46,237 nt of DNA from a virus. A program made the translations under genes and the position numbers. Within the stretch, counting starts at the first letter, position 1. The number at the start of each line of letters is the position of its first letter. Shown piece by piece: positions 5,681 to 38,723 of the stretch. Location: positions 1 through 46,237 of IMG/VR virus record IMGVR_UViG_3300043037_000040, one strand, 5' to 3'. The notes beneath the pieces are model-generated. The model made no database searches. It was not told the DNA's origin and saw nothing but the letters and a program-made list of their open reading frames with translations.

Positions 5681-5701
5681 TCGTGACGCCATGATGCGTC
5701 C
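5681..5701 (+). promoter_or_regulatory. phage late-promoter-like element, copy 1
   Basis: TCGTGAC-GC-CATGAT followed by GCGTCC, with ATA at offset 21 where other copies have ATG. It lies just after the terminator at 5642-5669 and 53 bp before the fibre-gene start at 5734. The first T is 5681; A at offset 10 and T at offset 14 are present. GACGC/GCGTC form a small hairpin inside it. Confidence 0.6.
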
Positions 5702-5733
5702 ATAGAATTCACGTTTCACGCGGGCGAGAACTG

Positions 5734-6045
5734 ATGATTATCAAACAGGGCGATACGTTTCTGCTGCCGCTCCAAATTTCCGTTGATGGGCAACCACAGG
5801 ACCTGACGGACTGGTCTATCAGATCCTGCGTGAGTAGCGTGTCCGGGGTCATGGCTGAGTTTGATATCGAGTATCCAGACCGTGCAGCTGGGAAAGTTCT
5901 GCTGCGGGCCGACACATCCGCCTGGAAGATCGGCACTTATTCATTCGATATCCGTTACACCACCGATTCTGAACAGGTCACCACCACCGCATCTGAGGTG
6001 ATCCAGGTGATCAAGTCAGACACGCCATCATTGGTGACACCATGA
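5734..6045 (+). CDS. small beta-rich structural protein
   Basis: The 103-residue product is predicted to be soluble and rich in beta structure (alternating hydrophobics such as TFLLPLQISVDG and YSFDIRYTTDSE). This is the pattern of small immunoglobulin-like phage fibre or tail accessory domains. It heads a run of five genes with 4-bp overlaps or gaps of a few bases, all short and structural-looking. Transcription probably starts at the TCGTGAC element 53 bp upstream; GGGCGAG before the ATG is a modest Shine-Dalgarno. I cannot name a specific family. Confidence 0.65.
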   Translation: MIIKQGDTFLLPLQISVDGQPQDLTDWSIRSCVSSVSGVMAEFDIEYPDRAAGKVLLRADTSAWKIGTYSFDIRYTTDSEQVTTTASEVIQVIKSDTPSLVTP

Positions 6046-6266
6046 TCATTGCTACGGCAAGTCGGAGCGGCACCATCACAGCAGTCGGCGAAATGTTGGT
6101 GTCTGGGGCGAAGCTGAAAATCAGTTTGCATTCCGTCAGTGCCTCGAGCATTGGCGGTCTGAGCATTAAAACCAGTGAAACTAGTCTACGTGGCCCTCCA
6201 GGGTTGCCCGGTGCAGGTTCACTCCCTACCGATCCGCTCGCCTACTACATCCTCGCCAAGGGGTAA
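6042..6266 (+). CDS. small fibre-like protein with Gly-Pro repeat
   Basis: The 74-residue product overlaps the previous gene by ATGA. Residues 1-50 are Ser/Thr/Ile-rich and beta-like; residues 50-60 contain a short collagen-like stretch (GPPGLPGAG); the end is LAYYILAKG. Such joints are common in phage fibres, where a Gly-Pro hinge links an attachment segment to a trimeric shaft. It may be a connector peptide for the fibre genes that follow. Function inferred from position and composition only. Confidence 0.6.
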   Translation: MIIATASRSGTITAVGEMLVSGAKLKISLHSVSASSIGGLSIKTSETSLRGPPGLPGAGSLPTDPLAYYILAKG

Positions 6267-6271
6267 TTTAT

Positions 6272-6754
6272 ATGTCTCTCGAAACGCAAATCACATCGCT
6301 GGTCACTGCTATCGGCACTGACATCAAAGCGTTAAGACTGGCTGATGGTGATCTTTCCACGCTGACCACTACGGCCAAATCTTCGTTGGTGGCGGCGCTG
6401 AACGAGCTGAAAACACTGATCGGAACCGGCGGTGGAGCGGCGATCAACGACGCCAGCACCACCAGCACCACCACAACCTGGTCAGCTCAGAAGTCGACAG
6501 CTGCTATCGATGCAGCCGTAACTGCACTGGTGGCAAGCTCTCCATCTACATTGAATACGCTCAATGAGCTGGCTACCGCACTGGGCAATGATCCGAACTA
6601 TGCAACAACCATCGCCACGGCAATGGGAAACCGTATCCGTTTTGATGCGGCGCAGACACTGACTACGCCACAACAGGCCCAGGCTTGCGCGAACATTGGT
6701 GTGGGTGATCCAGCGCATAACTTCGTCACTGACTACACCACCGCCAAGGCGTAA
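6272..6754 (+). CDS. putative virion (head or tail) fibre protein
   Basis: The 160-residue product has a helical N-terminus (MSLETQITSLVTAIGTDIKAL), a Ser/Thr/Gly-rich middle, and a segment LNTLNELATALGNDPNYAT that recurs in phage head and tail fibre shafts. The C-terminus (TPQQAQACANIGV, DYTTAKA) is also typical of fibre joints. The first 21 residues are nearly duplicated at the start of the next gene, which suggests a shared anchoring or trimerisation tag. Shine-Dalgarno AAGGGG lies upstream. Confidence 0.65.
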   Translation: MSLETQITSLVTAIGTDIKALRLADGDLSTLTTTAKSSLVAALNELKTLIGTGGGAAINDASTTSTTTTWSAQKSTAAIDAAVTALVASSPSTLNTLNELATALGNDPNYATTIATAMGNRIRFDAAQTLTTPQQAQACANIGVGDPAHNFVTDYTTAKA

Positions 6755-6756
6755 CC

Positions 6757-7242
6757 ATGAGCCTGATCGACACCATAACTGCGCTGGCCCAGGCGATCGG
6801 GGCCGACATAAAAAGTCTGACCGCGAACAAGGTGTCGGTTGTTGCGGGCAAGGGTTTGTCGACCAACGATTACACGACAGCGGAGAAAACCAAGCTCGGT
6901 ACTACGCGTGCGTCTGGGTTTGACGACCTGGTCACGATCTCGGCAGCTACTGGCACGGTGACACTGAACATGTCCTTGGCCACGTCGTTCGAGCTGACAC
7001 TGACCGGAAACACGACGATCGCGTTCTCGAACATGCCAGTGCCGTCTGGACAAGTGTTTTCGTTCGTGGTGCGGATCACGCAAGGTGCAACACTGCGCAC
7101 GGTGACCTGGCCGGGTTCTGTCACCTGGCTGACTGTGGGCGCCGTGAAGGTTGCTGACCCTGCCGTGAACAAGATGGTCGAGTACGTTTTTAGCACCAAA
7201 AACGGCACGGTGATCGAAGGCGGCAAAGGTAGGTACACATGA
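6757..7242 (+). CDS. putative virion fibre protein, paralogous N-terminus
   Basis: The 161-residue product begins MSLIDTITALAQAIGADIKSL, a near copy of the previous protein's start. It continues through a joint (GLSTNDYTTAEKTKL) found in many fibre proteins into a beta-sandwich-like C-terminal domain (residues about 65-160). In that domain, repeats such as GTVTLNMSLATSFELTLTGN resemble head-fibre and tail-fibre knob domains. The gene starts 2 bp after the previous stop and overlaps the next start by 4 bp. A role as a surface fibre is inferred from architecture; capsid and tail are both possible sites. Confidence 0.65.
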   Translation: MSLIDTITALAQAIGADIKSLTANKVSVVAGKGLSTNDYTTAEKTKLGTTRASGFDDLVTISAATGTVTLNMSLATSFELTLTGNTTIAFSNMPVPSGQVFSFVVRITQGATLRTVTWPGSVTWLTVGAVKVADPAVNKMVEYVFSTKNGTVIEGGKGRYT

Positions 7243-7880: not shown

Positions 7881-7886
7881 TCTGCG

Positions 7887-7907
7887 TCGTGACCGCACCA
7901 TGCGGCC
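7887..7907 (+). promoter_or_regulatory. phage late-promoter-like element, copy 2
   Basis: TCGTGAC-CG-CACCAT followed by GCGGCC and directly by the ATG of the giant helicase gene at offset 21. No Shine-Dalgarno sequence is present. In read-through RNA, TCGTG/CATGA and CCGC/GCGG would form a hairpin that buries the start codon. Confidence 0.7.
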
Positions 7908-10900
7908 ATGACCGAAAATATCACGCACCGCCTCATCTTCCTGAAGGCCCTCGCTGAAGGCGAGCGCTGGATTACCGTCAAGGCCCCAGGCGCCGAGAAG
8001 GGTTCGCCCGTGCTCGTGCGTGAGAATCCGGACGGCTCTGCGTCCGTGATCGGCGGTGCCGGTGGCAAACTCAACCACTTGAAGCTCCGCGGCGTAAAGT
8101 CGAAAGAGCAGTACAAGAAAGAGTCCGGCGAGAAAGAGAAAACCAACCGCGAGGCGAAAAAGCAGGCGGTGGCTGCGCAGCGGGCCAAGGATAAAGAGGC
8201 TGGCATTGCCGGATCGAAAGCCAAAGTCCGCAAGGAGATCAAGGAACAGACACACGCCGAGGAGCGTGAATACGTCAAAGCAACAGCCAAGGTCATGGGC
8301 TGGGATGAAAAGGATCTGGCCTTCGACGAAGAGAAACATGCGGATCTGTCGCCGGCGGCCGTGACCAAGTTGGCGCGTGAGCACCATCGCGAGCTGGTGA
8401 AGAAAGCGAATGAAGCCTACGACCTGAACCGTCAAAGCCTGGCGATGGATTCCGAAGCGCGCCAACAGGCGAACATCGGCGGCGCCACCTACAAGCCTGA
8501 TGATCCCGACAGCATTTCAGTGGCCGACCTGGACCAGGCTGCGGGCCCGTCCACGGGACTGGGTTTCTCCCCTGAATATAAAGCGCGTGCCGAAGAGGCC
8601 GGACTGACTGATCCTGAATTGGAAAAGGAAGCCGGCCAGGTTCGCGAAAAGAAACAGGCGCAGATGTCCGAAGGCGAACGCAAAGCAGCGATCAACCGCG
8701 GGCAGTCGGCCAAGCTGGTGAAACAGGAGCTGCAGGGTGTTCGCGAGGATGACGCAGAGAAAACCGATCGACTCAAAGCGCACCTGGTGGAAGCGGATAA
8801 AGCGCTCGAGCTGATGAAGGCGAAAAAGCGCCTCGACCTAGCCCGCAAGAAAGCCTCTGACGCGCTGAAGAGCGTGGAAAAATCCAATGTCGAACCTAAG
8901 GCCTACGTGCTCGAAGTAGACGCCGCCGATGTTGACAGTGCGGTAGAGAGCCAAGTGGTCAACGATCTGCGCACCATCCGCACGCGAAACTTCCTGAGCG
9001 AAGCCGGCAAGGTGCCTGAAAAGTCGATCGGCTCCCACGTTGCCAGTGGCGCGTTCAACTCGATCAATAGCCTGTCGCTGGCGGCCACGGGCGCAGGCCT
9101 GATGGATCGTAGCACCGTTGACGTGCTCGGCGTGGCCGGTGCCGCTTCGGTCCTGGCTCGCCGGCTGCATACCGATCTGACGCCGGATGAAATGGCTCAA
9201 GTCGCCGAAGGCATGGAAGATTTCCACCAGCACCATTACATGGACCTATCCAAGAAATCCTTGGATGAGGCCAAAGCGCTGACGGATCAAGTCGAAAGTA
9301 TGACGCTGCCTACTGCTGACAATGGCGGTGACCTGGCAGCGCTCCAGGAGATAAACGCACGGCGCCGGGATGCACTGAATGAATCGACGCGTATCCTCGG
9401 TACCGCTGCCGGTGAAATGGAAGCCAACGCTGCGCTGGTACAAGCACTGCGTGACAAGCCGGCCGATAAGCTGGAAATTCCCATGGGCAAGGCGCAGCCG
9501 GAGGCGATCATCCGCCAGGCGCGCGCGCTTGGTTTGCAACGCGGTGATTACTCAATCGATCCCGTCGGCGGGCAAACCTTCCTGACCATCACCGCCAGCG
9601 GCATGGATCGCTTGGCCGAGCCGGTCGACCGTGAATCGATGCAGCAGATCCGCCGGAACCTGGACATCATCGAAGGCAAGCAGGACGAAGACCAATGGCT
9701 TCCTAAGGGTTTTGCCAACCGGCCAGATCTGGACCTGAAACCGAAACCGGGCGTCGCGGCGAAACTGGCCATCCCGTTCGAGGTTGGTGCTGACGCTGAA
9801 CAGTCGCTGGCCGATTACATTGGTGGGCGTGCAGCTGATGGTGATTCGCCTGCCGATATCGTCGCCGACTTGCAGTCCGAGACGTTCATGCAGAAGGCTG
9901 GCGATCGCCGTGACCAATACATGCAGGCGCTGGATAAGCTGGCGCCCGCCCAGGATGCAGACGGCAAGCAGATTCGGAACGAGTCGCTGCAATCGTCGTT
10001 CGAGAAAATGGCAGACGAGTTCGTCGAGAAACGCTACGGCGCTGATCTGACGCCGCTTCATCGTCAGCAGTTCGACATGGACCAGACGTCTGTCGATGCG
10101 TTGCACCGTGCCCTGTCGGCCGAGCCATCCGGGGTAGCCGCGTACAAGCCGATCGGCGAACTGGATCACAAAGACCAGCGCGCGCTACGGGAGTACTTCG
10201 CTCGTGAGGTTGCGCATGAGTCGCCCGAGGCCGGGGAGATCCGGCAGAAGCTGGACGCGCTCGTGGCGAATGAGCCTGAGCAGCATGTCACCGATATGTT
10301 TGGCGAGCAGGCGAATAACCCTGAGTGGCTGGCCTGGAAGTCCGAGCGTGATGACCTGGCTGCCCAGCACAACAGCAGCAGCCTGAGTTGGGGCAAATAC
10401 GTCAAGGCCATGGGCAGCACAGCCAAGGCTTACGAAGCGGCCCAGGATCTGATCCGCTCGAAGATCGCGAAAGGCTTTCACGAGAATTACAACACGCTCA
10501 ACCCGAAGGGTGCACTGAAACTCGGCCACACGGTGATCCGCAACAACCTGGACCACCTGGACACGGTCGATCCTAAAGCACGGGCCGCCAGGGAGGCGAA
10601 GGAAACTGCCTTGCGTGATGGTCTGCGCGAGCGCGTCGGCGGCAAGTACGCCAGTGGCAGCGTGATCGACAAGCTGGATCAGCAGCGGGAACAGCAGGCC
10701 GCTTTCGAGCAGTCGCAGCTCGGGATGTTTTCCTCTGAGGAAATGCCCGCCACCGAACAGGAAAAGGCGCTTGGTGCTGATGAGCGCTATACCCTGGGCC
10801 ATGCCGCCGAGCAGAAAATCGCCAGCATGATGTCCGTCGTGGGAAAGAATTTCAAACCGGGCCAGGCGCTGAAACTGTGGCAGCCAACGATGAGCGGGTC

Positions 10901-12461
10901 CGGGGCGCCGCGGCAGCGCGCTATCAAGCTCCTCGATGCGAACAAGCGGGTCGGTCTGGCGTTCGGCGTCGGCACGGGTAAAACCGCGATCGGCCTGGGC
11001 GGCTTCTCGCACCTGCACGAGCAGGGCAAAATCAAGAAGGGTTTGTTTGTCGTGCCATCGATCGTCCAGGGCCAGTTCGGCGGTGAGGCGCTGCGCTACC
11101 TGGAGCCTGGCAAATTCAAGTGGCATGCGGAGCCCGGCGCGTCGTTCGAGTCGCGTTTGCAGGCCTATAAGGATCCGGAAAACAGTTTCACCGTGGTGAC
11201 GCACCAATCGTTTCGCGATGACATGGTGAAACTCGGAGCGCAGCACGCGGGGATTCCTGAGGACCAGATGAGCCAGAAGCTGGGCGAAATGAGCCGGGGC
11301 GATCGCAAGGCCTGGATCCGCGCCGTGATGGACAAGGAAGGCATCGACCATCAGTACATCATGGTCGACGAAGGGCACAACACGCTGAACCGAAAAGGCA
11401 AAGAAGACAGCGGCATGGCCAATGTGATCGATGCCGCTACGGACAACAGCGAGTACTTCGTGAGCGCCACCGCGGACCCGGTCAAGAATGACCTGTCCGA
11501 GTTGCACGACGCCATGACCAAGCTGGCCGGCGGCAACTACATGGACCGCGATACCTTCATGCGTAAATACGGCGTCGACACCGCGGCAAGCAAGGATTCG
11601 TTGCGCCGGGAAATGGCGCGCTACTTCTACCCGTCGAAGATTGACCCTGAAACCGGCGCCAATCGCCAGGAGATCAAGGTCCAGCTCAACGACCAGCAGA
11701 AAACCGAACTGGAAAAGATCGACCGTCACGCGTTGGCTCTGCGCCTGGCGCGCATGGGTGGTCGCGTCGATATCGAGTCGGCCAAGGCCCTGGCGCCGGA
11801 ACAGTTCGCGGGTGTGCCTGAGGAGAGGCACGAAGCAATCGCCAAGGCCCTGCAGAAGAACATCGGCTTGCTTAAACGTCCGGCCGTGCGCCGGGTGATC
11901 AACAACCATCCGGACGGCGCCAAGTTTGAGGCCGCGGTGAACTATGCGCGTGAGCGCAAGGGTAAGCCCGGGGTGTTCTTCACACGCTCGCTCGAGGGTG
12001 TGGCGATTCTGAAAGCCAGGCTGGAAAAAGAAGGCTTCCGGGTGGCGACAATCACCGGCGCCGACAGCTCGAAGGAAAAGGAGGCCAAGCGGCAGATGTT
12101 CAACCCTGAGGGTGGTGCAGAAGCCCAGGCCGATATCCTGGTAGCCTCCGATGCGGCGGCGACCGGCATGAACATTCAGCGCGGTCAGTGGTTGACGGCG
12201 ATCGACACGCCGGAAACAGCTATGACCCATGCCCAGCGGCAAGGCCGGATCTACCGCACCGGGCAGAAGAACGACGTCGAGCTGGCTGACCTGGTGGCCG
12301 ATCATCCGATGGAACGGGCGGACAGGGCCAGGCTCCAGACGAAATACGCACTGCGTGACCTGGTCACCAGTCCGCTCGAAGGCCTGGATGATAGTGGCCT
12401 GGCGTATTTCCTCAAGCAGCGCCGTGATCGACAACAAGAGCAGTCCGGCAGCTTGTTTTAA
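7908..12461 (+). CDS. giant SNF2/DarB-like helicase
   Basis: The 1517-residue product has an N-terminal segment (1-110) with VLVRENPDGSASVIGGAGG. A long, charged alpha-helical middle (about 110-950) follows, then a C-terminal SNF2-type helicase: Walker A GVGTGKT (near 1023), VDEGH (near 1152), SATADP (near 1186), and a second lobe with GVFFTRSLEG (near 1354) and AHAQRQGRIYRTGQKN-like motif VI (near 1440). It is the second such helicase within 8 kb. Phage P1 DarB and relatives are virion-borne and protect injected DNA from restriction, so a packaged antirestriction role is a reasonable inference. The ATG lies at the end of a TCGTGAC element with no Shine-Dalgarno. A hairpin follows the stop. 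Confidence 0.85.
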   Translation: MTENITHRLIFLKALAEGERWITVKAPGAEKGSPVLVRENPDGSASVIGGAGGKLNHLKLRGVKSKEQYKKESGEKEKTNREAKKQAVAAQRAKDKEAGIAGSKAKVRKEIKEQTHAEEREYVKATAKVMGWDEKDLAFDEEKHADLSPAAVTKLAREHHRELVKKANEAYDLNRQSLAMDSEARQQANIGGATYKPDDPDSISVADLDQAAGPSTGLGFSPEYKARAEEAGLTDPELEKEAGQVREKKQAQMSEGERKAAINRGQSAKLVKQELQGVREDDAEKTDRLKAHLVEADKALELMKAKKRLDLARKKASDALKSVEKSNVEPKAYVLEVDAADVDSAVESQVVNDLRTIRTRNFLSEAGKVPEKSIGSHVASGAFNSINSLSLAATGAGLMDRSTVDVLGVAGAASVLARRLHTDLTPDEMAQVAEGMEDFHQHHYMDLSKKSLDEAKALTDQVESMTLPTADNGGDLAALQEINARRRDALNESTRILGTAAGEMEANAALVQALRDKPADKLEIPMGKAQPEAIIRQARALGLQRGDYSIDPVGGQTFLTITASGMDRLAEPVDRESMQQIRRNLDIIEGKQDEDQWLPKGFANRPDLDLKPKPGVAAKLAIPFEVGADAEQSLADYIGGRAADGDSPADIVADLQSETFMQKAGDRRDQYMQALDKLAPAQDADGKQIRNESLQSSFEKMADEFVEKRYGADLTPLHRQQFDMDQTSVDALHRALSAEPSGVAAYKPIGELDHKDQRALREYFAREVAHESPEAGEIRQKLDALVANEPEQHVTDMFGEQANNPEWLAWKSERDDLAAQHNSSSLSWGKYVKAMGSTAKAYEAAQDLIRSKIAKGFHENYNTLNPKGALKLGHTVIRNNLDHLDTVDPKARAAREAKETALRDGLRERVGGKYASGSVIDKLDQQREQQAAFEQSQLGMFSSEEMPATEQEKALGADERYTLGHAAEQKIASMMSVVGKNFKPGQALKLWQPTMSGSGAPRQRAIKLLDANKRVGLAFGVGTGKTAIGLGGFSHLHEQGKIKKGLFVVPSIVQGQFGGEALRYLEPGKFKWHAEPGASFESRLQAYKDPENSFTVVTHQSFRDDMVKLGAQHAGIPEDQMSQKLGEMSRGDRKAWIRAVMDKEGIDHQYIMVDEGHNTLNRKGKEDSGMANVIDAATDNSEYFVSATADPVKNDLSELHDAMTKLAGGNYMDRDTFMRKYGVDTAASKDSLRREMARYFYPSKIDPETGANRQEIKVQLNDQQKTELEKIDRHALALRLARMGGRVDIESAKALAPEQFAGVPEERHEAIAKALQKNIGLLKRPAVRRVINNHPDGAKFEAAVNYARERKGKPGVFFTRSLEGVAILKARLEKEGFRVATITGADSSKEKEAKRQMFNPEGGAEAQADILVASDAAATGMNIQRGQWLTAIDTPETAMTHAQRQGRIYRTGQKNDVELADLVADHPMERADRARLQTKYALRDLVTSPLEGLDDSGLAYFLKQRRDRQQEQSGSLF

Positions 12462-12467
12462 TGTTAC

Positions 12468-12487
12468 GGCTGCATAATAATGCAGCC
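12468..12487 (+). other. strong hairpin after helicase gene
   Basis: GGCTGCAT/ATGCAGCC, 8 bp with an AATA loop, lies 7 bp after the helicase stop. No T run follows, so it is not a standard intrinsic terminator. It may stabilise the mRNA 3' end or mark a processing site before the next Shine-Dalgarno (GGGGAG). Confidence 0.6.
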
Positions 12488-14972: not shown

Positions 14973-14993
14973 TCGTGACTTCATGATCCCCGC
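14973..14993 (+). promoter_or_regulatory. phage late-promoter-like element, copy 3
   Basis: TCGTGAC-TT-CATGAT followed by CCCCGCC. It overlaps the 5' arm of the terminator at 14986-15012. If initiation occurs about 21 bp after the first T, the new transcript lacks most of that arm and escapes the terminator, while transcripts from upstream would be stopped. Confidence 0.6.
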
Positions 14994-15012: not shown

Positions 15013-15273
15013 ATGCGCGACACCATCGACAACGTGCACAAGCAGCTGGCCAAGGTCGCCGGCCTACATGCGCGTGTCCAGGCTTCTGACGATCGCATCG
15101 GCCAATCGGCTGGCGATCGTCTGGCCAAGGTCGACCAGATGCTGGCCGAGTTGCGCCCGAATGTGATCCTCGATAGCGACGCGGCAGATGAATACATGGC
15201 CCTGGTGCAGGAGCGTGGTCAGCTCGTGACAACGCAACAGGCAACACGACAAAAGACTGGCTCGCAGTCGTGA
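15013..15273 (+). CDS. small helical protein, 86 aa
   Basis: The product (MRDTIDNVHKQLAKVAG...) is highly charged and mostly alpha-helical, with heptad-like spacing over residues 5-60. No signal peptide or motif is seen. An in-frame ATG at 14983 exists but would place the terminator hairpin inside the gene, so 15013 is preferred; GGGGA 8 bp upstream can serve as a Shine-Dalgarno. It precedes the prohead protease and its 3' end overlaps the next promoter-like element. It may be a small head-assembly factor. Function unknown. Confidence 0.6.
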   Translation: MRDTIDNVHKQLAKVAGLHARVQASDDRIGQSAGDRLAKVDQMLAELRPNVILDSDAADEYMALVQERGQLVTTQQATRQKTGSQS

Positions 15274-15289
15274 CAGCAGAATTCAGGCC
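15268..15289 (+). promoter_or_regulatory. phage late-promoter-like element, copy 4
   Basis: TCGTGAC-AG-CAGAAT followed by TCAGGCC and then the ATG of the prohead protease at offset 22. It overlaps the last codons of the preceding gene. Only a weak AGG lies before the start codon. Confidence 0.65.
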
Positions 15290-16204
15290 ATGAACGATAT
15301 AGGTGCAACGACGTTGACCGCGAATGATGAAGAACTGCTAGCAGAAGTCCCCGGCTTTATCAGCGTGGGTGGACTGCTCAAAGCAACCGCCTCTAGCGAG
15401 GACGGGGAGCGCTTCATCTATTTGGAAGCCAGCAATGAGGACGTCGACCACCAGAATGAAATCGTTCTGCAAAAGGCGCTCAAGGCCTCTTCTGAGTATT
15501 ACCTGCGCCACGGCAACATCGACCTGTCGCACTACTCGATCATGGGGCCGAAAGCCGGCATCCCGAACCATCTTGAATACGAAATCGGCAAGCCGGTGGC
15601 GGTCAGGATGGATGGCAAGAAGACCTTCGTGAAGGCCCAGCTTTACCGTGGCGACTCGCCCCAGGCGCGTAACGCCAATATGGTCTGGGAGACGCTGACG
15701 TCACAGAGTCCGCCGATGCGCTGGTATCCGTCCGTAGGTGGCGCGGTCCTGTCGAAGTCCGTCCAGTTCGATCCGAAGACCCAGCAGCGAGTTGCTGTGA
15801 TTGAGGAAGTGCGCTGGAACAACATCGCCCTCGATCGCTGCCCGGTCAACAAAACAGTTTCCGAAATCAATACCGCTCCGATTGGCGTTTTCGCCAAAGC
15901 GTTGAACGGTTTTGTCATGGCCAAGACGTTGGAAGCCGGTTACGGCACCGACTCGGCAACGCTTACTGGCGGCGGGGCCATGCGCACCCAAAGCCTGCAC
16001 GGAGCTCCAGCCAACTACTGGGACTTCCGCAACAAACTCGCCAGCGCCCTCAAAAACGGGAGTGCCGGTAAGAACCCTGGCGCGCGACAACTCGTTGAGT
16101 ATGCCGCCAAGACGTTCGGAGTGTCGCTGGATGAAGCGGCGAAAACCGTAGAGCGCTTCATGCGCGACCTTAATACCGAGCTGAAAAACCGGAGTAAATC
16201 ATGA
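15290..16204 (+). CDS. prohead maturation protease (HK97/U35-like serine protease)
   Basis: The 304-residue product follows the prohead-protease pattern. Residues 44-62 hold LEASNEDVDHQNEIVL; candidate catalytic histidines are H74 and H81 (HGNIDLSH). EIGKPVAVRMDG (98-109) and KAQLYRG follow, then a candidate nucleophile S148 in WYPSVGG, and LDRCPVN near 181-187. Such proteases cleave scaffold and capsid termini during head maturation. The C-terminal 90 residues are an extra helical tail, possibly a fused scaffold segment. Residues 215-230 (EAGYGTDSATLTGGGA) recur almost identically near the N-terminus of the capsid protein. The stop overlaps the next start by ATGA. It has no clear Shine-Dalgarno and starts at the end of a late-promoter-like element. 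Confidence 0.85.
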   Translation: MNDIGATTLTANDEELLAEVPGFISVGGLLKATASSEDGERFIYLEASNEDVDHQNEIVLQKALKASSEYYLRHGNIDLSHYSIMGPKAGIPNHLEYEIGKPVAVRMDGKKTFVKAQLYRGDSPQARNANMVWETLTSQSPPMRWYPSVGGAVLSKSVQFDPKTQQRVAVIEEVRWNNIALDRCPVNKTVSEINTAPIGVFAKALNGFVMAKTLEAGYGTDSATLTGGGAMRTQSLHGAPANYWDFRNKLASALKNGSAGKNPGARQLVEYAAKTFGVSLDEAAKTVERFMRDLNTELKNRSKS

Positions 16205-20000: not shown

Positions 20001-20644
20001 TGCACCTCAATCCCGACGAGTTCAATGCCCACCTGAATGACCTTGGCCAGCTGTTCGGCTGGCGGCCGTCGTTCGTCTGCCCGTGCTCGGTCGCCGGCTA
20101 CGGCTCGGCAGATCCTGAATGCCCGAACTGCCTAGGCCGCGGGCACATCTGGGAAGCGGAGCAGCAGGGGATGTCGGGCATCGCCGGGATGAAGATCCAG
20201 CGCCAGTGGGCCGACTTCGGTGGCTTCCAGGCGGGCGACGTGGTGCTGACCATTCCCAGTGATTCGCCGCTGTACGATATCGGTGATTACGATCGGGCCA
20301 CCATGCTGAACAGTTCGGAGCCGTTTTCCTTCGAGTTGACCCGTGGCGGCAATGACAAGCTGTGGTTTACCGTCGTATCGATCCGTCGTGTGTTCTGGCT
20401 GGATGAGAACAAGGCGATTGTCGACGGCGGCATTCCCGATGTAGCCGAGGACGGCACGCTGACCTGGGCATTCGGCGAGCCACCGATTGGCATGATGTAC
20501 AGCATCACCGGGCGCCGGCTCCCGGAGTATTTCTGCTACCAGGACTTCCCTCAGGATCGAGCCCACCATTCGGGCGCACGCCTGCCGCGCAAAGTGGTGC
20601 TGCGCAAGTTCGATCTGTTGGGGCGTGTCGAGAACGGTGCTTAA
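20000..20644 (+). CDS. structural protein with N-terminal zinc-finger-like cluster
   Basis: The 214-residue product carries a cysteine cluster at residues 27-46: CPCS then, 12 residues on, CPNCLGRGH. This resembles zinc ribbons seen in some phage neck and tail-completion proteins. The rest is beta-rich (DVVLTIPSDSPLYDIGDYDRA), like head-tail joining proteins. The ATG at 20000 overlaps the preceding TGA; a GTG 3 bp earlier is possible. Its stop overlaps the stop of a convergent gene, and no terminator separates them. Confidence 0.7.
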   Translation: MHLNPDEFNAHLNDLGQLFGWRPSFVCPCSVAGYGSADPECPNCLGRGHIWEAEQQGMSGIAGMKIQRQWADFGGFQAGDVVLTIPSDSPLYDIGDYDRATMLNSSEPFSFELTRGGNDKLWFTVVSIRRVFWLDENKAIVDGGIPDVAEDGTLTWAFGEPPIGMMYSITGRRLPEYFCYQDFPQDRAHHSGARLPRKVVLRKFDLLGRVENGA

Positions 20645-21495
20645 CCGCCGAGATCCAGCTTCACCGCTTCATGGAACACTTCTTCAGCGAGCGGCGTCAT
20701 GCGTTCGGCGACTTGCTTGGCGAGGAACAGGCCAGGCTTCGCCGGGATGATCCAGCCGCTAGAGCCTTCCATCATCACCCTGAACGTCATGTACGAGCTG
20801 CGGCTTTCGACGCCCGAGCTCGATTCCATGCGGACCATACCCGCATACCGGTTCTGAACGTCTTTCCCGTGCTTGGCCAGGTCGCCGCTTTTGAGTGCGC
20901 CGGCCCAGCGATAATCCCTGGACGGCACCATGGCGCGACCTTTGGTGCTCGGATCTGAGGCGAATTCTGGTTGCTTGCGAGCGACCACCATGCCGGCCCC
21001 GGGGATCAGGTGCACGGTGTGTCCGGCCAGGCGCTCGCCTTTGCCAACGATCAATGACTTGGCCAGGTCGCGCGCCTGTTGGTAGACGGCGAACGGCATT
21101 GCATTGCCACTGGCGTTGTTTCCTGGCGTGTTGTGGCGGAAGGGGATAATCAGGAATCGCTTGCCGCTGGCAGTCCGGCGCACCTTGAGGCTGGTATCCA
21201 GCATCTTTTTCAAGTCGCGTTCTGCGCGCCCGGTTTCGATCGCTTCAGCATTCTTGTAGGTGGCGACCACTTCTGCGGAGAATGCACCTTTATAGTCCCA
21301 GGTGATCGATCGTGCGTATTCCTGGCGTTCCTTCGACCATAGCGGGGCATTCATCACCGCGGCCGTCCAATCCCGGTGGGCCGCTGCAGCGACAGCGCCG
21401 ACAGCCTCGTGCAGGCGCGGGAAGATCTCCTTGCTCAGGTTCGGGGCAAGGTTCATCAGTTCGGACAAATCGACGTTAATGTTGAAGTAGGCCAT
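20641..21495 (-). CDS. putative virion morphogenesis/tail-completion protein on opposite strand
   Basis: The 284-residue product (MAYFNINVDLSELMNL...) has a helical N-terminus with LHEAVGAVAAAAHRDWTAAV. The ending GWIIPAKPGLFLAKQVAERM resembles HK97 gp10-like and other neck/tail-completion proteins, which bind at the head-tail interface. Residues 120-200 contain RFLIIPFRHNTPG and MVPSRDYRWAG. It is the only gene on the minus strand in the head-tail block, yet it has its own TCGTGAC element with the ATG at offset 21 and no Shine-Dalgarno. It is convergent with the neck gene and divergent from the next tail gene. Function uncertain; late timing is inferred from the promoter-like element. Confidence 0.65.
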   Translation of the reverse strand: MAYFNINVDLSELMNLAPNLSKEIFPRLHEAVGAVAAAAHRDWTAAVMNAPLWSKERQEYARSITWDYKGAFSAEVVATYKNAEAIETGRAERDLKKMLDTSLKVRRTASGKRFLIIPFRHNTPGNNASGNAMPFAVYQQARDLAKSLIVGKGERLAGHTVHLIPGAGMVVARKQPEFASDPSTKGRAMVPSRDYRWAGALKSGDLAKHGKDVQNRYAGMVRMESSSGVESRSSYMTFRVMMEGSSGWIIPAKPGLFLAKQVAERMTPLAEEVFHEAVKLDLGG

Positions 21496-21516
21496 GTAGC
21501 CATGTTCGCGTCACGA
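21496..21516 (-). promoter_or_regulatory. phage late-promoter-like element, minus-strand copy
   Basis: Read on the minus strand: TCGTGAC-GC-GAACAT followed by GGCTAC and the ATG of the 20641-21495 gene at offset 21. A at offset 10 and T at offset 14 are kept. It stands back to back with the plus-strand copy at 21522, 5 bp away. No Shine-Dalgarno is present. Confidence 0.7.
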
Positions 21517-21521
21517 TTAGG

Positions 21522-21543
21522 TCGTGACCGCATCATCCTGCCC
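21522..21543 (+). promoter_or_regulatory. phage late-promoter-like element, copy 5
   Basis: TCGTGAC-CG-CATCAT followed by CCTGCCC and ATG at 21544 (offset 22). This ATG, not an earlier in-frame codon inside the divergent gene, is taken as the start of the tail gene. No Shine-Dalgarno is present. Confidence 0.7.
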
Positions 21544-22371
21544 ATGATCTCATTCGCGCAATCCCTCGCCATTGGCAATGCCGTTCGCATTGTCCTATCG
21601 CCTCCAGCTGGCGCAACGCGCTGGCGCCTGCTGCGTAAAGCTACGGACACCTTTACAGGTCAGGACGATCCGGCAGCACTGGTTGTGCTGGATAGCAAGC
21701 AAACCATCAGTGCGGTCGATCGTACTGCGCTGACCAATACGAGCACCTATTTCTATCGGGTTTACTACCTGGCCGCCACGACCTGGTCCGGCTCGGCGAC
21801 AGTTCCGGTCACGGTGACCTCTGACTACCAGGAGGTCACGGACGATGTCCTAACCGTGGTGCTCGACCGGCTTAATCAGGGTCTATTTGTCGAGCTCCAG
21901 CGCGGCAAACTCAAGCACCCGAACAACCGCATTCCAGTGCTCCCAGCGTTCCCATTTCAGAAAGAAATTGCATGGCCTGTCGTGACAGTACATTTGTCGT
22001 CGGATGGTTCTGACGGGCGCGGTATAGGCGAAACGCTGGCGCCAGATGAGTTTGATGGTGATGACTGGGAAGTCGGTGAAGGCTGGTTGTCCCGTGTACG
22101 CCTGGACATTATCGGCTGGTCGCAGAACGCGATCGAACGGGCATCACTGCGGCAAGCCATTCGCCGTGTGCTTATCGCCAACCTTCCGGTATTCGACAGC
22201 GTTGGGATGATTCAGATCGACCTGAGCCAGTCTGACACCGAAGAGCCGCACGGCGAAAAGAACACCGTTATTTACAAAAGCGTTGGCAGTTTCTCCTGTG
22301 TGGCACCGGTTCAGATCGTCAGCAAACAGGATGAAATCATCGACGTTGAATTAACTGTAAACGTGCCGTAG
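21544..22371 (+). CDS. putative tail terminator/completion protein with Fn3-like N-terminus
   Basis: The 275-residue product starts at MISFAQSLAIGNAV. Residues about 5-100 look like a fibronectin type III-like domain (RWRLLRKATDTFTG, STYFYRVYYLAATTW). Residues 105-275 (VTDDVLTVVLDRLNQGLF, EIAWPVVTVHLSSDGSDG, SRVRLDIIGWS, ALRQAIRRVLIANL-type helix, SVGSFSCVAPVQIV) match the layout of tail-completion proteins encoded just before the sheath. It would cap the tail tube or sheath at the neck. An internal TCGTGAC-AG-TACATT at 21982 resembles the late element but lies in codons. Confidence 0.65.
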   Translation: MISFAQSLAIGNAVRIVLSPPAGATRWRLLRKATDTFTGQDDPAALVVLDSKQTISAVDRTALTNTSTYFYRVYYLAATTWSGSATVPVTVTSDYQEVTDDVLTVVLDRLNQGLFVELQRGKLKHPNNRIPVLPAFPFQKEIAWPVVTVHLSSDGSDGRGIGETLAPDEFDGDDWEVGEGWLSRVRLDIIGWSQNAIERASLRQAIRRVLIANLPVFDSVGMIQIDLSQSDTEEPHGEKNTVIYKSVGSFSCVAPVQIVSKQDEIIDVELTVNVP

Positions 22372-29794: not shown

Positions 29795-30600
29795 ACGACG
29801 GCATCAGTTTGGCGAAAGTGATGCGTGTGGTCCCTGGTGGCCATGCCGTCGACCTACTGTTCATGGATACCGGCGACCGTGTGCCGTCTGTTCAGGTGCT
29901 GGCGGGGTCTGCTGGCGGCGATACTGGACTGGTCAACCTGGTGCAGCCGGATCAGCCGGCGGCCGGGCAAGATCAGTGGGACCCGAACAGGATCGGCGAA
30001 CGTGAGGTGATCGCCTGTGTCGCCTATTACAAGAATCTGCCGGTGGTGATTGGCTTCCTGTTTCCTCAGGTCTGCCAGATGCTGTTCGACCGACAGAACT
30101 TCAAGGTGGACCGACACGCCTCGGACGTGTACACGACGACGGACAATGACGGCAACTATGAAATGTTCCATCCGTCAGGTACCTATCTGCGCATCGGCAC
30201 TGGGCCAGAGCATGAGGATCTGACCGGGCAGGATTTTGATGGAAAGTGGGCAATCGCCAACAACACCGATAAGGCCGTGCATGTGCATTTATCAGTGCGT
30301 AATGCGGGTGCGGAGGTGGCAAGCCTGGATATTGATCCGGCCGGCAATGTAACGCTGGGCCATGCCGGTAACTACACACAGAACGTCGGTGGTAATTACG
30401 CGCTGATCGTGGCTGGCAACGCAATGAAGAACGTTACCGGTTCCGATACGCTGGTGGCCAATACGATCGAGGCCACTAGCAGTTCTTCCGTGCAGATCAA
30501 CAGCGCCACGCTCAAGCACAATACTAAAAACGTTGGCGACACCCATGACCACGGTACTGGCGCGCTGATTCCTGGAAAAACTGCGGTGCCAAACCCCTAA
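29791..30600 (+). CDS. baseplate spike protein (gpV/gp5-like)
   Basis: The 269-residue product has an OB-fold-like N-terminal half (VMRVVPGGHAVDLLFMDTGD). It then has a repetitive beta-helix (LGHAGNYTQNVGGNYALIVA, NAMKNVTGSDTL) and a C-terminal HxH, H252-D253-H254 in DTHDHGTG. In P2 gpV and related spikes this motif binds an iron ion at the tip. It would pierce the outer membrane. The stop overlaps that of the convergent minus-strand gene. Confidence 0.9.
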   Translation: MNDGISLAKVMRVVPGGHAVDLLFMDTGDRVPSVQVLAGSAGGDTGLVNLVQPDQPAAGQDQWDPNRIGEREVIACVAYYKNLPVVIGFLFPQVCQMLFDRQNFKVDRHASDVYTTTDNDGNYEMFHPSGTYLRIGTGPEHEDLTGQDFDGKWAIANNTDKAVHVHLSVRNAGAEVASLDIDPAGNVTLGHAGNYTQNVGGNYALIVAGNAMKNVTGSDTLVANTIEATSSSSVQINSATLKHNTKNVGDTHDHGTGALIPGKTAVPNP

Positions 30601-31709: not shown

Positions 31710-31716
31710 GGGTAGA

Positions 31717-31911: not shown

Positions 31912-31950
31912 CTCTTCTTCCTCCGCGTCGTTCTTCTTACCTACAACTTA

Positions 31951-31979
31951 AATATAGTCGCAGATGTATATCTTTGCAA
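31951..31979 (-). promoter_or_regulatory. sigma-70-type promoter for minus-strand cassette
   Basis: On the minus strand, -35 TTGCAA (31979-31974), exactly 17 bp spacer, then -10 TATATT (31956-31951). It is the best host-type promoter seen in the window and points at the 31717-31911 gene. The late-type element for the baseplate genes lies 30 bp away, facing the other way. Confidence 0.75.
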
Positions 31980-32008
31980 CTGCACATACAAAGTAATTGC
32001 ACCGCTTG

Positions 32009-32029
32009 TCGTGACAGCACCATCCTGTC
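32009..32029 (+). promoter_or_regulatory. phage late-promoter-like element, copy 6
   Basis: TCGTGAC-AG-CACCAT followed by CCTGTC and ATG at offset 21. TCGTGACAG can pair with CTGTCATGA (one G-T), so a longer transcript would hide the start codon in a 9-bp hairpin. No Shine-Dalgarno is present. Confidence 0.7.
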
Positions 32030-33193
32030 ATGAGCACACCATCGTCCCAGAAATCAGCCGTTCGCCCGATCAGCTTCCTGCTCCAGGATCTGAGCAATGG
32101 CAACGACCTGACCAGCGTCCCACTGAACATCCGCCCAGCTGATCTGACGCGGGTGGAGCCGTCGCGCGCCACTGTGCAGCAGACGCTCGGCGGGGCCTGG
32201 CTGGATAACTGGGGGCCAGGCATTCGCCAGGTGAACATCAACGGTCATACCGGCTGGCGTGGCAGTTATCTGGAGGATGGGGTCGAGGCGTTCAAGACAC
32301 TGAACAACACCGTGTTCAAGAGCTGGCATGAGAAACGCCGTCTAGCGATTGCTGCCGGGCGTGACCCTGAGCTGATTCAGCTGATCTTTGCCGATCTGCT
32401 CGACGACTTCGTGTACGTGGTGGCCCCGATGGCCTTCACGCTGCGTCGTAACAAACAGAGCCCGCTGCTGATGCAATACCAGATCAGCATGCTGGTGCTG
32501 TCAGAAGACCTGGTGGAGCTCAAGGACAAACTCAGGCCGCCAGTGATCTTGCCGGGTGACGTGGCCGTTCCCGAGGCGCTGAAAACGCTCCGGGAGATCC
32601 TGGGCCGTATCCGCAACTTCGCCACCACCGTGGGCAACTTCATCAACGGTACGATCGGCGCCGCGGTTCGTTCCTTCATGAACCTGACGGCCAACGTGCT
32701 GGCGGTAACGGTCGAGACGATCAGCTCCTTGAAGGGATCGTTTGATGAGGTGGCCGGACCTTTGATGTCGATCGCCACTGACCTGGCCCAGGCCGGCCGC
32801 AACATCATGGCGAGCGTGGCCTCGGTCCAGTCCCTTGGCACGTTCGTCAAATCCAGGATCATGGAAATCGGCGGCGCCTTCACTTATGCCTTGTGCTTGC
32901 TGAAAAACGCTTTCGGCGGCGGCAAGAAATACCCGAATTATTCCGACTGGTACGGTGCGAGCAACTGTTCCTCGATTTCCGGCGGGCGTCCACTGTCGCC
33001 GCTGCGCTTCGAGAACCCTTTCTACAAGTTGGCACCGAGCGCCAGCACGCCGATCACGCAAACACCTGAAGCACGCAGCGCCATGAAGCTGCTGGTTGGT
33101 ATGGACGTGCTTTCGGCAACGCCGACGATGGATATGGAATCCAATATTCGCTCGGTCAATGACGGGACGGTTGTTGTCGAGGCTACAGCATGA
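32030..33193 (+). CDS. baseplate/distal tail-like protein
   Basis: The 387-residue product has an N-terminal domain (residues 10-165) with VPLNIRPADLTRVEPSR, TLGGAWLDNWGPG, VNINGHTGWRG and LIFADLLDDFVYVV. This is a conserved set in phage baseplate proteins that resemble distal-tail subunits linking tube and wedge. The second half is helical (170-280) and ends in a linker with ITQTPEARSAMKLLV. The gene starts a new transcription unit after the minus-strand cassette, at an ATG with no Shine-Dalgarno, and overlaps the next gene by ATGA. Confidence 0.7.
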   Translation: MSTPSSQKSAVRPISFLLQDLSNGNDLTSVPLNIRPADLTRVEPSRATVQQTLGGAWLDNWGPGIRQVNINGHTGWRGSYLEDGVEAFKTLNNTVFKSWHEKRRLAIAAGRDPELIQLIFADLLDDFVYVVAPMAFTLRRNKQSPLLMQYQISMLVLSEDLVELKDKLRPPVILPGDVAVPEALKTLREILGRIRNFATTVGNFINGTIGAAVRSFMNLTANVLAVTVETISSLKGSFDEVAGPLMSIATDLAQAGRNIMASVASVQSLGTFVKSRIMEIGGAFTYALCLLKNAFGGGKKYPNYSDWYGASNCSSISGGRPLSPLRFENPFYKLAPSASTPITQTPEARSAMKLLVGMDVLSATPTMDMESNIRSVNDGTVVVEATA

Positions 33194-33813: not shown

Positions 33814-33814
33814 C

Positions 33815-34945: not shown

Positions 34946-34949
34946 CAGC

Positions 34950-36065: not shown

Positions 36066-36069
36066 TCGG

Positions 36070-36090
36070 TCGTGACATTACCCTCCTGTC
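36070..36090 (+). promoter_or_regulatory. phage late-promoter-like element, copy 7
   Basis: TCGTGAC-AT-TACCCT followed by CCTGTC and ATT (offset 21). Here the gene starts 21 bp further on and uses a strong Shine-Dalgarno, so this copy would give a short leader of about 20 nt. Confidence 0.6.
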
Positions 36091-36102
36091 ATTAAAGGAG
36101 GG
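36081..36102 (+). promoter_or_regulatory. Shine-Dalgarno-sequestering hairpin
   Basis: CCCTCC (36081-36086) can pair with GGAGGG (36097-36102), which is the Shine-Dalgarno of the fibre gene at 36112. In read-through RNA the site would be masked. In RNA begun near 36091 the masking strand would be absent. Confidence 0.5.
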
Positions 36103-36111
36103 CATCCCCCC

Positions 36112-36576
36112 ATGATCCAACTCATTGACGACGTGAATTACGGCGACCCCGAGTATCGGCCGGTCGGAATTTTCACGCTGAACATTTACCGCAAAGGCGT
36201 GCTGGTTGAGGTCTACGAAGACAACAACCTGGTCGTTGACCTTTCCAAACAACAGCTGGCCAGGTTGATCGGCGGCGATGTGACCAACCGGTCGCTGACC
36301 AAAATGGGCTGGGGCACCTCGGGTACGGCTCCATCTGCGGGGAATACATCGCTGACAGGGGCCTATGTTAATGCGCTGGGGGCTGTCACCTACCCGGCGA
36401 CCAACTCTGTGCAATACGCCTTTGCCCTGAGCACGTCAGAAGCCAATGGCCTGTCCATCCTGGAATTCGGCCTGTTCACCGCTGGTGATGTGCTTTTTGC
36501 TCGAAAAACCCGTGCCGGTGCCATTGTGAAAGATTCCGATCTTTCGCTTGCGGGCACCTGGCGCATCAACTTTTAA
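36112..36576 (+). CDS. tail fibre-associated (connector) protein
   Basis: The 154-residue product (MIQLIDDVNYGDPEYRPVGI...) has NIYRKGVLVEVYEDNNLVVD then LSKQQLARLIGGD. This pattern is found in short phage tail proteins that attach fibres to the baseplate. The C-terminal half is beta-rich (SNSVQYAFAL-type strands, LSILEFGLFTAGDVLFARKT). It is the first gene of the fibre unit and has AAAGGAGGG as Shine-Dalgarno. Specific role inferred from position. Confidence 0.65.
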   Translation: MIQLIDDVNYGDPEYRPVGIFTLNIYRKGVLVEVYEDNNLVVDLSKQQLARLIGGDVTNRSLTKMGWGTSGTAPSAGNTSLTGAYVNALGAVTYPATNSVQYAFALSTSEANGLSILEFGLFTAGDVLFARKTRAGAIVKDSDLSLAGTWRINF

Positions 36577-36587
36577 GGGGCTGGTAA

Positions 36588-37346: not shown

Positions 37347-37356
37347 GGAGCTTCAG

Positions 37357-37755
37357 ATGAGTCTTACACTTCCTGGCACTGGGCCGATGACGTTGCCGAC
37401 TGGGTCGCTGCTGGCGGCCTCGCCTGCGACTGGTGACCGGACGGAGTTGGTCGCCACGATGAAGAAGTTTGCAGATGAGTTTGGTTCTTTGCTGGCTACC
37501 AACGGCTGGCAGAAGTTACCAAGTGGATTGATTATTCAATGGGGATTAACTGGTACCGGGGGTACTGTTACTACAGTGTTCCCGATCGCATTCCCTACAG
37601 CATGTTTTTCTGTTGTTGCTACGGCCAATGGTACTACTGGCGGTGCTGATGAGGTCGAGTTGTCGACTGTAACAGCTGTCCAGTTTATTGCGAACCACGC
37701 GAACAGTGGAGTCAACTCATCTGGCAACTCCCGCTGGATTGCCATCGGCTATTAA
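37357..37755 (+). CDS. receptor-binding fibre tip, paralogue 1
   Basis: The 132-residue product starts at MSLTLPGTGPMTLPTGSLLA behind AAGGAG. Residues 50-132 form a gp53-like C-terminal fibre domain: WQKLPSGLIIQWG, VFPIAFPTACFSV, and the closing RWIAIGY. Two more genes carrying the same domain follow directly. The framework motifs are kept while the intervening strands differ, as in receptor-binding tips. Base composition of the variable half is more AT-rich than its neighbours, a sign of exchange. Confidence 0.8.
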   Translation: MSLTLPGTGPMTLPTGSLLAASPATGDRTELVATMKKFADEFGSLLATNGWQKLPSGLIIQWGLTGTGGTVTTVFPIAFPTACFSVVATANGTTGGADEVELSTVTAVQFIANHANSGVNSSGNSRWIAIGY

Positions 37756-37764
37756 GGACCCATC

Positions 37765-38229
37765 ATGAGCACACTCAAAACAAACCGGGTCCAGCTCGGG
37801 CTGTCTGGTACCGCTACGCAGAACTTCACGTTTGACGCCTCGGCGGCGGACGGCACGATGAAGTTGGCGCGCGGGGTGGCCGGTGCGACTACGCAAGACA
37901 TTTTGACCATCAACGCCTTGGGCGAGGTTGATTTTCCACAGTTGGTTCGGTCGTATGGCACCCAAGGGTATCAAAAGCTTCCTGGTGGACTGATCATTCA
38001 GTGGGGTACTACTGGAGGCATAAATCCTGGCAGTAGTGTGTCAGTTACATTCCCAATTGCCTTTCCAAATAAGGCCTTGTCGGCGATTGCTGGTTTTTGG
38101 GCGGCAGCTGCAATTAGCGCAGCAACATTTGCTACGAACGTAGGTTCAGGAACGGCAGTTTCGCAAATGACCGTATTTTTTGCTGGCGGCTCACCGCAAC
38201 CTGCCCAATGGATCGCCATCGGCTACTGA
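37765..38229 (+). CDS. receptor-binding fibre tip, paralogue 2
   Basis: The 154-residue product has a distinct N-terminal 70 residues (TNRVQLGLSGTATQNFTFDA with GATTQDILTINALGEVDFPQ), as used in fibre attachment. It then has the gp53-like tip GYQKLPGGLIIQWGTTGG, VTFPIAFPNKALSAI and WIAIGY. Shine-Dalgarno AAGGA. It differs from its neighbours chiefly between the two framework motifs. Its AT-rich middle stands out from the GC-rich surroundings. Confidence 0.8.
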   Translation: MSTLKTNRVQLGLSGTATQNFTFDASAADGTMKLARGVAGATTQDILTINALGEVDFPQLVRSYGTQGYQKLPGGLIIQWGTTGGINPGSSVSVTFPIAFPNKALSAIAGFWAAAAISAATFATNVGSGTAVSQMTVFFAGGSPQPAQWIAIGY

Positions 38230-38241
38230 GGAGAAAAATCT

Positions 38242-38688
38242 ATGTCTGTTTCCCTGAGGGCCGATGCTGGCGGCGCTGTCGGCGCATTGCAGCTGAATGG
38301 CGCTGATCGCCTCGTCCTGAATGCCGACGGTACGTTGAGCGGGACCGTTAACCCGACTACCGGTGTGCGCAGCAACGTGCTGGCGACCATGCAGAAGTTT
38401 GCGGATGAGTTTGCTTCATCGTTGACAACGAGTGGTTATCAGAAGCTTCCGAGCGGATTGATTATTCAATGGGGCACTACAGGAAGCGTCACTACGTCAA
38501 TTGCAATTACCTTTCAGCTTGCATTCCCAAATGGCGTTTTAACAACAGGATATGGCGGAAAGCTTTCAGGTGATGCGGCGCAATACAACAACGTTGGTTT
38601 CAGTTCTGTTACTAACACAGGGATGACTTTCTTTACTGGAACTGGAACGACGGGCTCAGGAGTCCGCTGGATTGCTATCGGCTACTGA
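38242..38688 (+). CDS. receptor-binding fibre tip, paralogue 3
   Basis: The 148-residue product begins MSVSLRADAGGAVGALQLNG and shares with paralogue 1 the joint ATMQKFADEFASSLTTSGYQ (ATMKKFADEFGSLLATNGWQ there). The tip LPSGLIIQWGTTGSV, AFPNGVLTTGYGG and RWIAIGY closes it. It is the third consecutive gene of this type; the three may form hetero-oligomeric or alternative tips. Shine-Dalgarno GAGGAG. Confidence 0.8.
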   Translation: MSVSLRADAGGAVGALQLNGADRLVLNADGTLSGTVNPTTGVRSNVLATMQKFADEFASSLTTSGYQKLPSGLIIQWGTTGSVTTSIAITFQLAFPNGVLTTGYGGKLSGDAAQYNNVGFSSVTNTGMTFFTGTGTTGSGVRWIAIGY

Positions 38689-38702
38689 TTCATAAAATCT
38701 TG

Positions 38703-38723
38703 TCGTGATTTCACGATTCACTT
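38703..38723 (+). promoter_or_regulatory. phage late-promoter-like element, copy 8
   Basis: TCGTGAT-TT-CACGAT followed by TCACTTG. It has one change in the first block (T for C) and contains a perfect 6-bp palindrome TCGTGA/TCACGA. The next start is at 38770 with AAAGGA as Shine-Dalgarno, so a leader of about 45 nt is expected. It would serve the fibre-assembly and lysis genes. Confidence 0.55.

Follow-up and report, generated by a model that had tools for sequence, protein, structure and literature searches.

A repeated signal before particle-building genes of contractile-tail phages is very probably a transcription start switch

The stretch analyzed here (the window) is the entire IMG/VR record IMGVR_UViG_3300043037_000040, which is 46,237 bases long and may be a genome fragment. 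It encodes a contractile-tail phage, with genes for a DarB-like methylase/helicase, head protease, major capsid protein, sheath, lytic tail protein, baseplate, and tail fibres. A short element recurs along it: TCGTGAY, followed at fixed spacing by A at offset 10 and T at offset 14 (A10/T14), with offsets counted in nucleotides (nt) from the first T and the predicted transcription start at offset 21. The first-pass annotation had placed nine copies in the window; all nine are there, and A10 and T14 are kept in every one. The longer form that it gave, TCGTGAC-N2-CANNAT, is exact in six (5681, 7887, 14973, 15268, 21522, and 32009), and the other three deviate, with GAACAT at 21516 on the minus strand, TACCCT at 36070, and TCGTGAT at 38703. 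As it also noted, the 7-mer alone is not rare (TCGTGAC occurs 12 times in the window). Its module labels needed some correction, as 21522 directly precedes a neck/adaptor-type gene, with the sheath two genes further on, and the gene after 14973 starts at 15013. The copies and the genes that they would serve are as follows.

5681-5695, plus strand: putative promoter motif TCGTGACGCCATGAT, exact match; predicted start 5702, leadered, next gene 5734-6045; GAGAACTGATG lies 45 nt from the first T
7887-7901, plus strand: putative promoter motif TCGTGACCGCACCAT, exact match; predicted leaderless, ATG at 7908 (offset 21)
7908-12461, plus strand: large DNA helicase-type gene, open reading frame of 1517 amino acids, after motif 7887 (phrog_62, E-value 2e-167)
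14973-14987, plus strand: putative promoter motif TCGTGACTTCATGAT, exact match; overlaps the 5' arm of a terminator hairpin; gene start 15013
15268-15282, plus strand: putative promoter motif TCGTGACAGCAGAAT, exact match; predicted leaderless, ATG at 15290 (offset 22)
15290-16204, plus strand: head maturation protease gene, after motif 15268 (phrog_1028, E-value 5e-41)
20641-21495, minus strand: neck-region gene, after motif 21516 (phrog_16819, function unknown)
21502-21516, minus strand: putative promoter motif TCGTGACGCGAACAT, one mismatch; predicted leaderless, ATG at 21495 (offset 21)
21522-21536, plus strand: putative promoter motif TCGTGACCGCATCAT, exact match; predicted leaderless, ATG at 21544 (offset 22) of a 275-amino-acid gene, 21544-22371
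21980-21994, plus strand: tenth A10/T14 copy TCGTGACAGTACATT, inside the neck gene 21544-22371, role unclear
32009-32023, plus strand: putative promoter motif TCGTGACAGCACCAT, exact match; predicted leaderless, ATG at 32030 (offset 21)
32030-33193, plus strand: virion structural gene of the baseplate region, after motif 32009 (phrog_1011, E-value 6e-39)
36070-36084, plus strand: putative promoter motif TCGTGACATTACCCT, A10/T14 kept; predicted start 36091, 21-nt leader with AGGAGG, gene 36112-36576
38703-38717, plus strand: putative promoter motif TCGTGATTTCACGAT, A10/T14 kept; leadered, gene 38770-39297 of tail fibre assembly type (phrog_188/2837)

The copy at 21980 recurs in loci L007-L010 and L023 and could be an internal promoter or merely conserved coding sequence. 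The two copies at 21516 and 21522 stand head-to-head (window 21502-21536), their boxes 5 bp apart, before divergent neck genes. Divergent pairs at varied distance also occur in Touem01, G002, G010, G011, G013, G040, and G042, and in G031 with a variant box.

The repeated signal before particle-building genes is very probably a transcription start switch, common to a large phage family. In the window, TCGTGAYN3AN3T occurs 10 times compared to a mean of 0.65 and a maximum of 4 in 200 dinucleotide shuffles, and the exact full motif occurs 6 times compared to a mean of 0.03 and a maximum of 1; the excess is weaker when two mismatches are allowed (23 versus a mean of 12.3, with 1 of 100 shuffles reaching 23). 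The closest capsid relatives among 631 phage records are six isolates of 86-95 kb with 46.7-51.5% identity (Touem01, Mecenats66, PHB04 [two records], ST4, Jeremy, and Dolphis), followed by phiT5282EW and fHe-Yen8-01 at 42-44%, and capsid relatives at 61-100% identity are present in 20 IMG/VR loci. Across 15 records (the window, G001-G007, and seven isolates), TCGTGAY with A10 and T14 is present at 5-16 copies in 14 of them, against 0.6-1.9 predicted from base composition; Mecenats66 has only two, with 1.5 expected, and a reversed 7-mer control gave 0-4. The spacing is exact: in the 13 records other than the window and G001, A10 and T14 accompany 144 of 364 TCGTGAY sites, compared to 8-19 at shifts of 1-3 nt.

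A stricter pattern that places a start codon at the predicted start, TCGTGAYN3AN3T-N6/7-ATG, had 74 matches in 13 of 15 records (G001-G007, the seven isolates, and phage P1) and none when reversed; P1 and Mecenats66 were the two without it. Among 37 records, taken from 80 loci and mostly longer contigs, that encode cA, a core protein of the family discussed below, there were 190 matches in 34 records and none of the reversed control in any of the 37; G030, G031, and G043 lacked the pattern. The two sets overlap partly (G002 is in both), some records are closely related to one another, and records picked via cA or capsid form a nonrandom sample. At least 120 IMG/VR stretches hold a strict form of the motif, which recurs in a wide myovirus family whose longest records reach 80-98 kb.

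Placement separates the full motif from its box alone. The first-pass annotation had named, as an observation that would speak against a promoter, a full motif as common within genes as between them. This is not the case in two annotated relatives, Touem01 and PHB04, whose genomes are 9-10% intergenic: 29 of 31 full motifs are intergenic, as opposed to 3 of 42 TCGTGAY sites without A10/T14 (Fisher P = 1e-14). The predicted start falls within 1 nt of an annotated coding sequence start in 14 of these 31, 10-39 nt upstream of it in 12, and 78-312 nt upstream in the other five. Five of the nine window sites (7887, 15268, 21516, 21522, and 32009) have their ATG at offset 21 or 22, and there is thus no room for a Shine-Dalgarno (SD) sequence. 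Copies predicted to be leaderless precede orthologous genes in different records, namely, the plus-strand neck gene in 13 of 15, the protease gene in 12, the baseplate gene in 10, and the portal gene in 9, and, in fewer records, gp34505, the large helicase, the minus-strand neck gene, and the terminase. Overall, 78 of 166 classified sites are leaderless by this measure and 88 are not (window/G001 duplicates and Mecenats66 counted); among 149 unique sites (duplicates removed, G001 and Mecenats66 set aside), 76 have ATG at offset 20-22, with 54 at 21, 18 at 22, and 4 at 20. In Jeremy, the sites at 6504, 9946, 16287, 25586, and 86290 place the predicted start at the ATG, and those at 30001 and 32427 are leadered. 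At about half of the copies, then, the message seems to begin exactly on the start codon, as predicted from the spacing. This position of the start codon on the predicted start site, which had gone unnoticed in the first-pass annotation, is the most unusual feature of the motif.

On the coding strand, the proposed consensus reads G-TCGTGAY-G-S-C-A-n-n-[A/C]-T, then 6 nt, then +1 at an A. In 152 sites, information is found at -22 (G, 84%), in the box, at -14 (G, 55%), at -12 (C, 55%), at -8 (A or C, 93%), and at +1, beyond A at -11 and T at -7, by which these sites were selected. A at -11 and T at -7 are the usual sigma-70 contacts in a -10 element, and offset 21 is the start predicted by the -10 geometry. 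No position from -51 to -23 is conserved in these sites, and hence there is no conserved -35 element; the box, at about -22 to -14, would stand in for it. Some of the sites that are not predicted to be leaderless precede leaders with an SD sequence (e.g., AGGAGG after 36070).

Other copies are combined with terminators. The hairpin at 14973 has its stem at offsets 12-20/27-35 and a TTT tail, and the predicted start, 14994, is within the loop. In 64 sites (G001, G002, and Mecenats66 set aside; 3-nt bins, in which one site may fall in two bins), stems of at least 8 bp start 11 times in bins at offsets 9-17 and never at 18-89; another 8 starts fall at -39 to -25, the place expected for ordinary terminators of the preceding genes. 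With a 7-bp threshold, two stems appear downstream. A start at offset 21 with the 5' arm largely lost is predicted for window 14973, Jeremy 30001, fHe-Yen8-01 30138 and 60225, phiT5282EW 4150, and ST4 3896.

We consider it probable (roughly 80%) that the repeats are promoters used by the host RNA polymerase for a morphogenesis, and presumably late, regulon, in which the box replaces the -35 element, a phage-encoded factor reads it, and the transcript is often leaderless. A phage protein would bind the box and keep host RNA polymerase there, acting like Lpa of phage P1. At about half of the copies, +1 would be the A of ATG, and the mRNA would therefore be leaderless; the other copies would have a short leader or lie within the 5' arm of an upstream terminator. 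In the latter arrangement, read-through RNA would stop, whereas newly started RNA would pass because most of the 5' arm of the hairpin is missing from it. The promoter class proposed in the first-pass annotation likewise had A at -11 and T at -7, started near offset 21, and carried the box in place of the -35 element, and the fixed spacing and gene-start placement in the phage family bear this part out.

The novelty is smaller than was claimed there, because the Lpa-dependent late promoters of P1 already combine a GTGA[CT]-core box with a -10 element. In T4, middle and late promoters (MotA/AsiA and gp55/gp33), like other sigma-appropriation systems, let host polymerase start without a -35 element by means of a phage protein, and their DNA sequence differs from the motif here. 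P1 is the closest working analogue, since the GTGA[CT] core is shared and the -35 element is missing in both. The likeness extends to the morphogenesis genes served, the position of the box upstream of a -10 hexamer, the dispersed copies, and positive control by a phage protein, which here is proposed. In the P1 record, a late promoter is annotated as a hexamer that follows a 9-bp "-22 region" after 4 nt; the boxes include AAGTGACTT (LPmat), AAGTGACTA (LPpro), and AAGTGATTT (LPlyz), and, from annotated positions only, the gap is the same 4 nt in LPpac and 9 nt in LPhot. In the five of 11 P1 late promoters covered by this comparison (P1 30,001-82,999, the expected location of the others, set aside), the AAGTGACTT-like box lies 4 nt before the hexamer in four, whereas here the box is GTCGTGAY(G), with its C/T just 2 nt before the hexamer. 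The 9-bp inverted repeat of P1 (AAGTGACTT type, centred near -22) is absent from the motif here; the box is about 4 nt nearer the -10 element, and only the GTGA[CT] core is shared. The Lpa-type layout of a -10 element with no -35 element is present, with A-11/T-7 at fixed spacing and an unconserved -51 to -23. The Lpa profile (PF25716) matched over its cut-off only in P1 and in none of the 14 non-P1 records, one sub-cut-off match in fHe-Yen8-01 contains a stop, and blast and phmmer found no homologue of P1 Lpa in the loci compared. P1 has no ATG at the start site in the three sequences compared, in contrast to about half of the copies here. The best reading is that these promoters would work like Lpa promoters, as candidate analogues of that class.

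A phage-encoded sigma factor, rather than an activator of host sigma-70, might instead read the entire element from -22 to -7, a possibility that the first-pass annotation had raised as a sigma-like protein. The element is indeed unbroken over about 16 bp, and position -12 most often holds C (55%) instead of T. However, A-11 and T-7 resemble sigma-70, and the Sigma70_r4 profile had no match over its cut-off in 15 records, with three sub-cut-off stretches in Mecenats66 and G002, although divergent sigma factors would be possible. We regard this alternative as unlikely. It is more improbable still that a phage repressor or silencer binds the repeats as operators that overlap ordinary promoters, even though GTC-GT-GAC in the box is a short inverted repeat and many genomes encode cC, a small helix-turn-helix protein. 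The spacing to the -10-like element is fixed and no -35 is conserved, so that without the box no full promoter remains; moreover, 10 of 28 records gave no cC, five of them with 6-9 leaderless sites, and cC is present in G030 and G031, which are without the leaderless TCGTGAY pattern.

The 76 of 149 unique sites with ATG at offset 20-22 would also be expected if the motif acted in mRNA as a translation-start signal, i.e., a ribosome- or RNA-binding element 15-21 nt before AUG. The other 73 sites speak for a promoter: they have no start codon there, yet the box and the -10-like bases are kept and A is preferred at offset 21 (42%; P = 7e-5 versus an assumed 22%), with C the commonest base before it (47%). 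Some sites have SD-containing leaders and some have terminator hairpins, and the protease genes of fHe-Yen8-01 and phiT5282EW keep the motif despite a leader with an SD-like stretch. We give a translation signal very little credence. Finally, virion DNA of Pseudomonas phage tf carries single-strand nicks at specific sites (TACT/RTGMC), and we dropped the idea that the motif marks nick sites of this kind after comparison with the tf sites given in PMC3517423. Those sites (mostly TACTGTGAC, on one strand) share GTGAC with the motif, but the consensus here is without TACT, its position is tied to gene starts and to a -10-like element, and divergent pairs are found on both strands.

Under the promoter reading, a box that changes within one family would fit a phage-encoded reader. 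The capsid of G031 is 68% identical to that of the window, and this record has no leaderless TCGTGAY match; TTGGGAC, CCGGGAC, or TCGGGAC occupies the corresponding position at gp34505 and the two neck genes, with ATG at offset 21-22, and its leadered protease gene has TCGGGAC upstream. Three TCGTGAY sites with A10/T14 remain. At G031 29225, 48100, 54321 (minus strand), and 54329, the layout is the same with GTGAC replaced by GGGAC, possibly a specificity switch within the family. Mecenats66 offers single examples, such as TAGTGATAATAAAAT with a hairpin before a holin gene and TCGTGATGGGATAAT before a neck gene.

As for the factor, the best candidates are cA and cB, adjacent conserved Cys-rich proteins, a tentative choice that could well be wrong. 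Each has conserved Cys pairs, and these core proteins of unknown function are encoded in 13 of 13 full genomes (Touem01 91020-91565 for cA and 84-398 for cB, in pieces L028 46021-46566 and L027 84-398, respectively; relatives in L090-L169). In the 30 of 80 cA loci that were scored (forward strand only), cB is always close downstream of cA and oriented like it; the distance is about 3 kb in G006, and in PHB04 the pair opens a gene block running toward late genes. Among contigs found by the motif alone (20 of 80 listed loci, chosen for length), cA and cB are present in all eight records of at least 75 kb, and cA was not found in 10 of 12 shorter ones. A capsid relative is present in 16 of these 20 contigs, and co-distribution does not single out cA and cB because the capsid and other core genes co-distribute too. 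The predicted models are confident (predicted local distance difference test [pLDDT] scores of 87.7 for cA and 89.3 for cB). For cA, there was no PDB fold match with an E-value of ≤0.001, one unnamed BFVD match at that level, a best VIA Z of 2.3, and no Pfam family over cut-off. The cB fold search gave weak matches only, the top four of which are RNA polymerase II chain I (E-value, 0.4-1.2), which we take to be RPB9 for three of them. Two other proteins were rejected as the factor: cC, which was not found in motif-rich records among the 10 of 28 and yet is present in G030/G031, and an AraC-type regulator (Touem01 8850-9716), which cannot be the universal factor because only 6 of 12 other full genomes have relatives.

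Several observations weigh against the proposed promoters and their reader. Late timing is inferred from gene content, and some sites precede genes of unknown timing. Some full motifs lie within genes, namely, 21980 in the window and one each of the 15 and 16 in two isolates. The excess of hairpins is modest when stems are defined loosely (23 of 74 sites versus 0-16 of 74 at five control positions, and a TTT tail in 9 sites versus 0-6). The variant box of G031 is thinly supported: GGGAC is the top-enriched 5-mer in leaderless context with 3 occurrences versus 0.19 expected, and the G031 baseplate orthologue is without it. Mecenats66 and G031 lack the leaderless TCGTGAY pattern despite having cA relatives; the presence of cA and cB in all 13 full genomes is shared by many structural and replication genes; and the predicted folds of both match no known DNA-binding protein.

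Upstream of the first motif, the window carries one further feature with a candidate link to leaderless translation.

4445-4521, plus strand: initiator-like tRNA-Met(CAT)

It is 86.8% identical over 99% of its length to tRNA-Met genes that Escherichia coli genomes carry at a median of four places each, and the G001 tRNA is identical to it. The tRNA-Met of PHB04 has a C:A end pair and that of G002 a T:T end pair, both with a GGG:CCC anticodon stem; those of the window and G007 have a T:A end pair and an AGG:CCT stem; and that of G031 has a G:C end pair and is elongator-like. By the usual criteria, the PHB04 and G002 tRNAs look like initiators and those of the window and G007 are initiator-like. 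Leaderless translation is strongly enhanced by more initiator tRNA, according to a passage of PMC9031893. The link is a lead only, outside the claim made here, because scans of the remaining family records (except two short pieces, L047 and L086) found no tRNA-Met. In Bordetella phage PHB04, ARAGORN reported a transfer-messenger RNA near three tRNAs (L029 46061-46432). We speculate, with slightly less credence than we give to cA and cB as the factor, that this is an unrecognised large myovirus family with a dispersed, largely leaderless promoter class, a new two-protein zinc-binding activator (cA-cB) replacing -35 recognition by host polymerase, and in some members an initiator-type tRNA of their own favouring leaderless translation.

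Leaderless mRNAs are called rare in enterobacteria, and lambda cI mRNA is given as leaderless, in passages of PMC9031893; phage transcripts are remarked to be often leaderless in a passage of PMC5312081. Known phage leaderless mRNAs likewise have the start codon at or near the 5' end of the RNA, as predicted here; the difference is that a dispersed set of virion genes would be leaderless, through promoter-to-ATG spacing, in proteobacterial phages apparently using host polymerase. Among the matches listed from the open-access literature, no title or abstract opening describes the motif or promoter class (none of the searches used the names Dolphis, Jeremy, ST4, or phiT5282EW), and a term search of the main text of the Mecenats66 paper (PMC9503643) gave neither "promoter" nor "late gene." The motif provides a sequence-defined map of predicted start sites for virion genes of a widespread phage group, including the isolates Touem01, PHB04, Jeremy, ST4, fHe-Yen8-01, and phiT5282EW. 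If transcription does start at offset 21, the phage couples its virion genes to leaderless translation in proteobacteria, and corrected gene starts, an orthogonal promoter for use in Pseudomonas, and a lead toward a new activator would follow. Adjoining the tail fibre assembly gene, window 39304-39741 matches phrog_1128 (enoyl-CoA hydratase/carnitine racemase-like).

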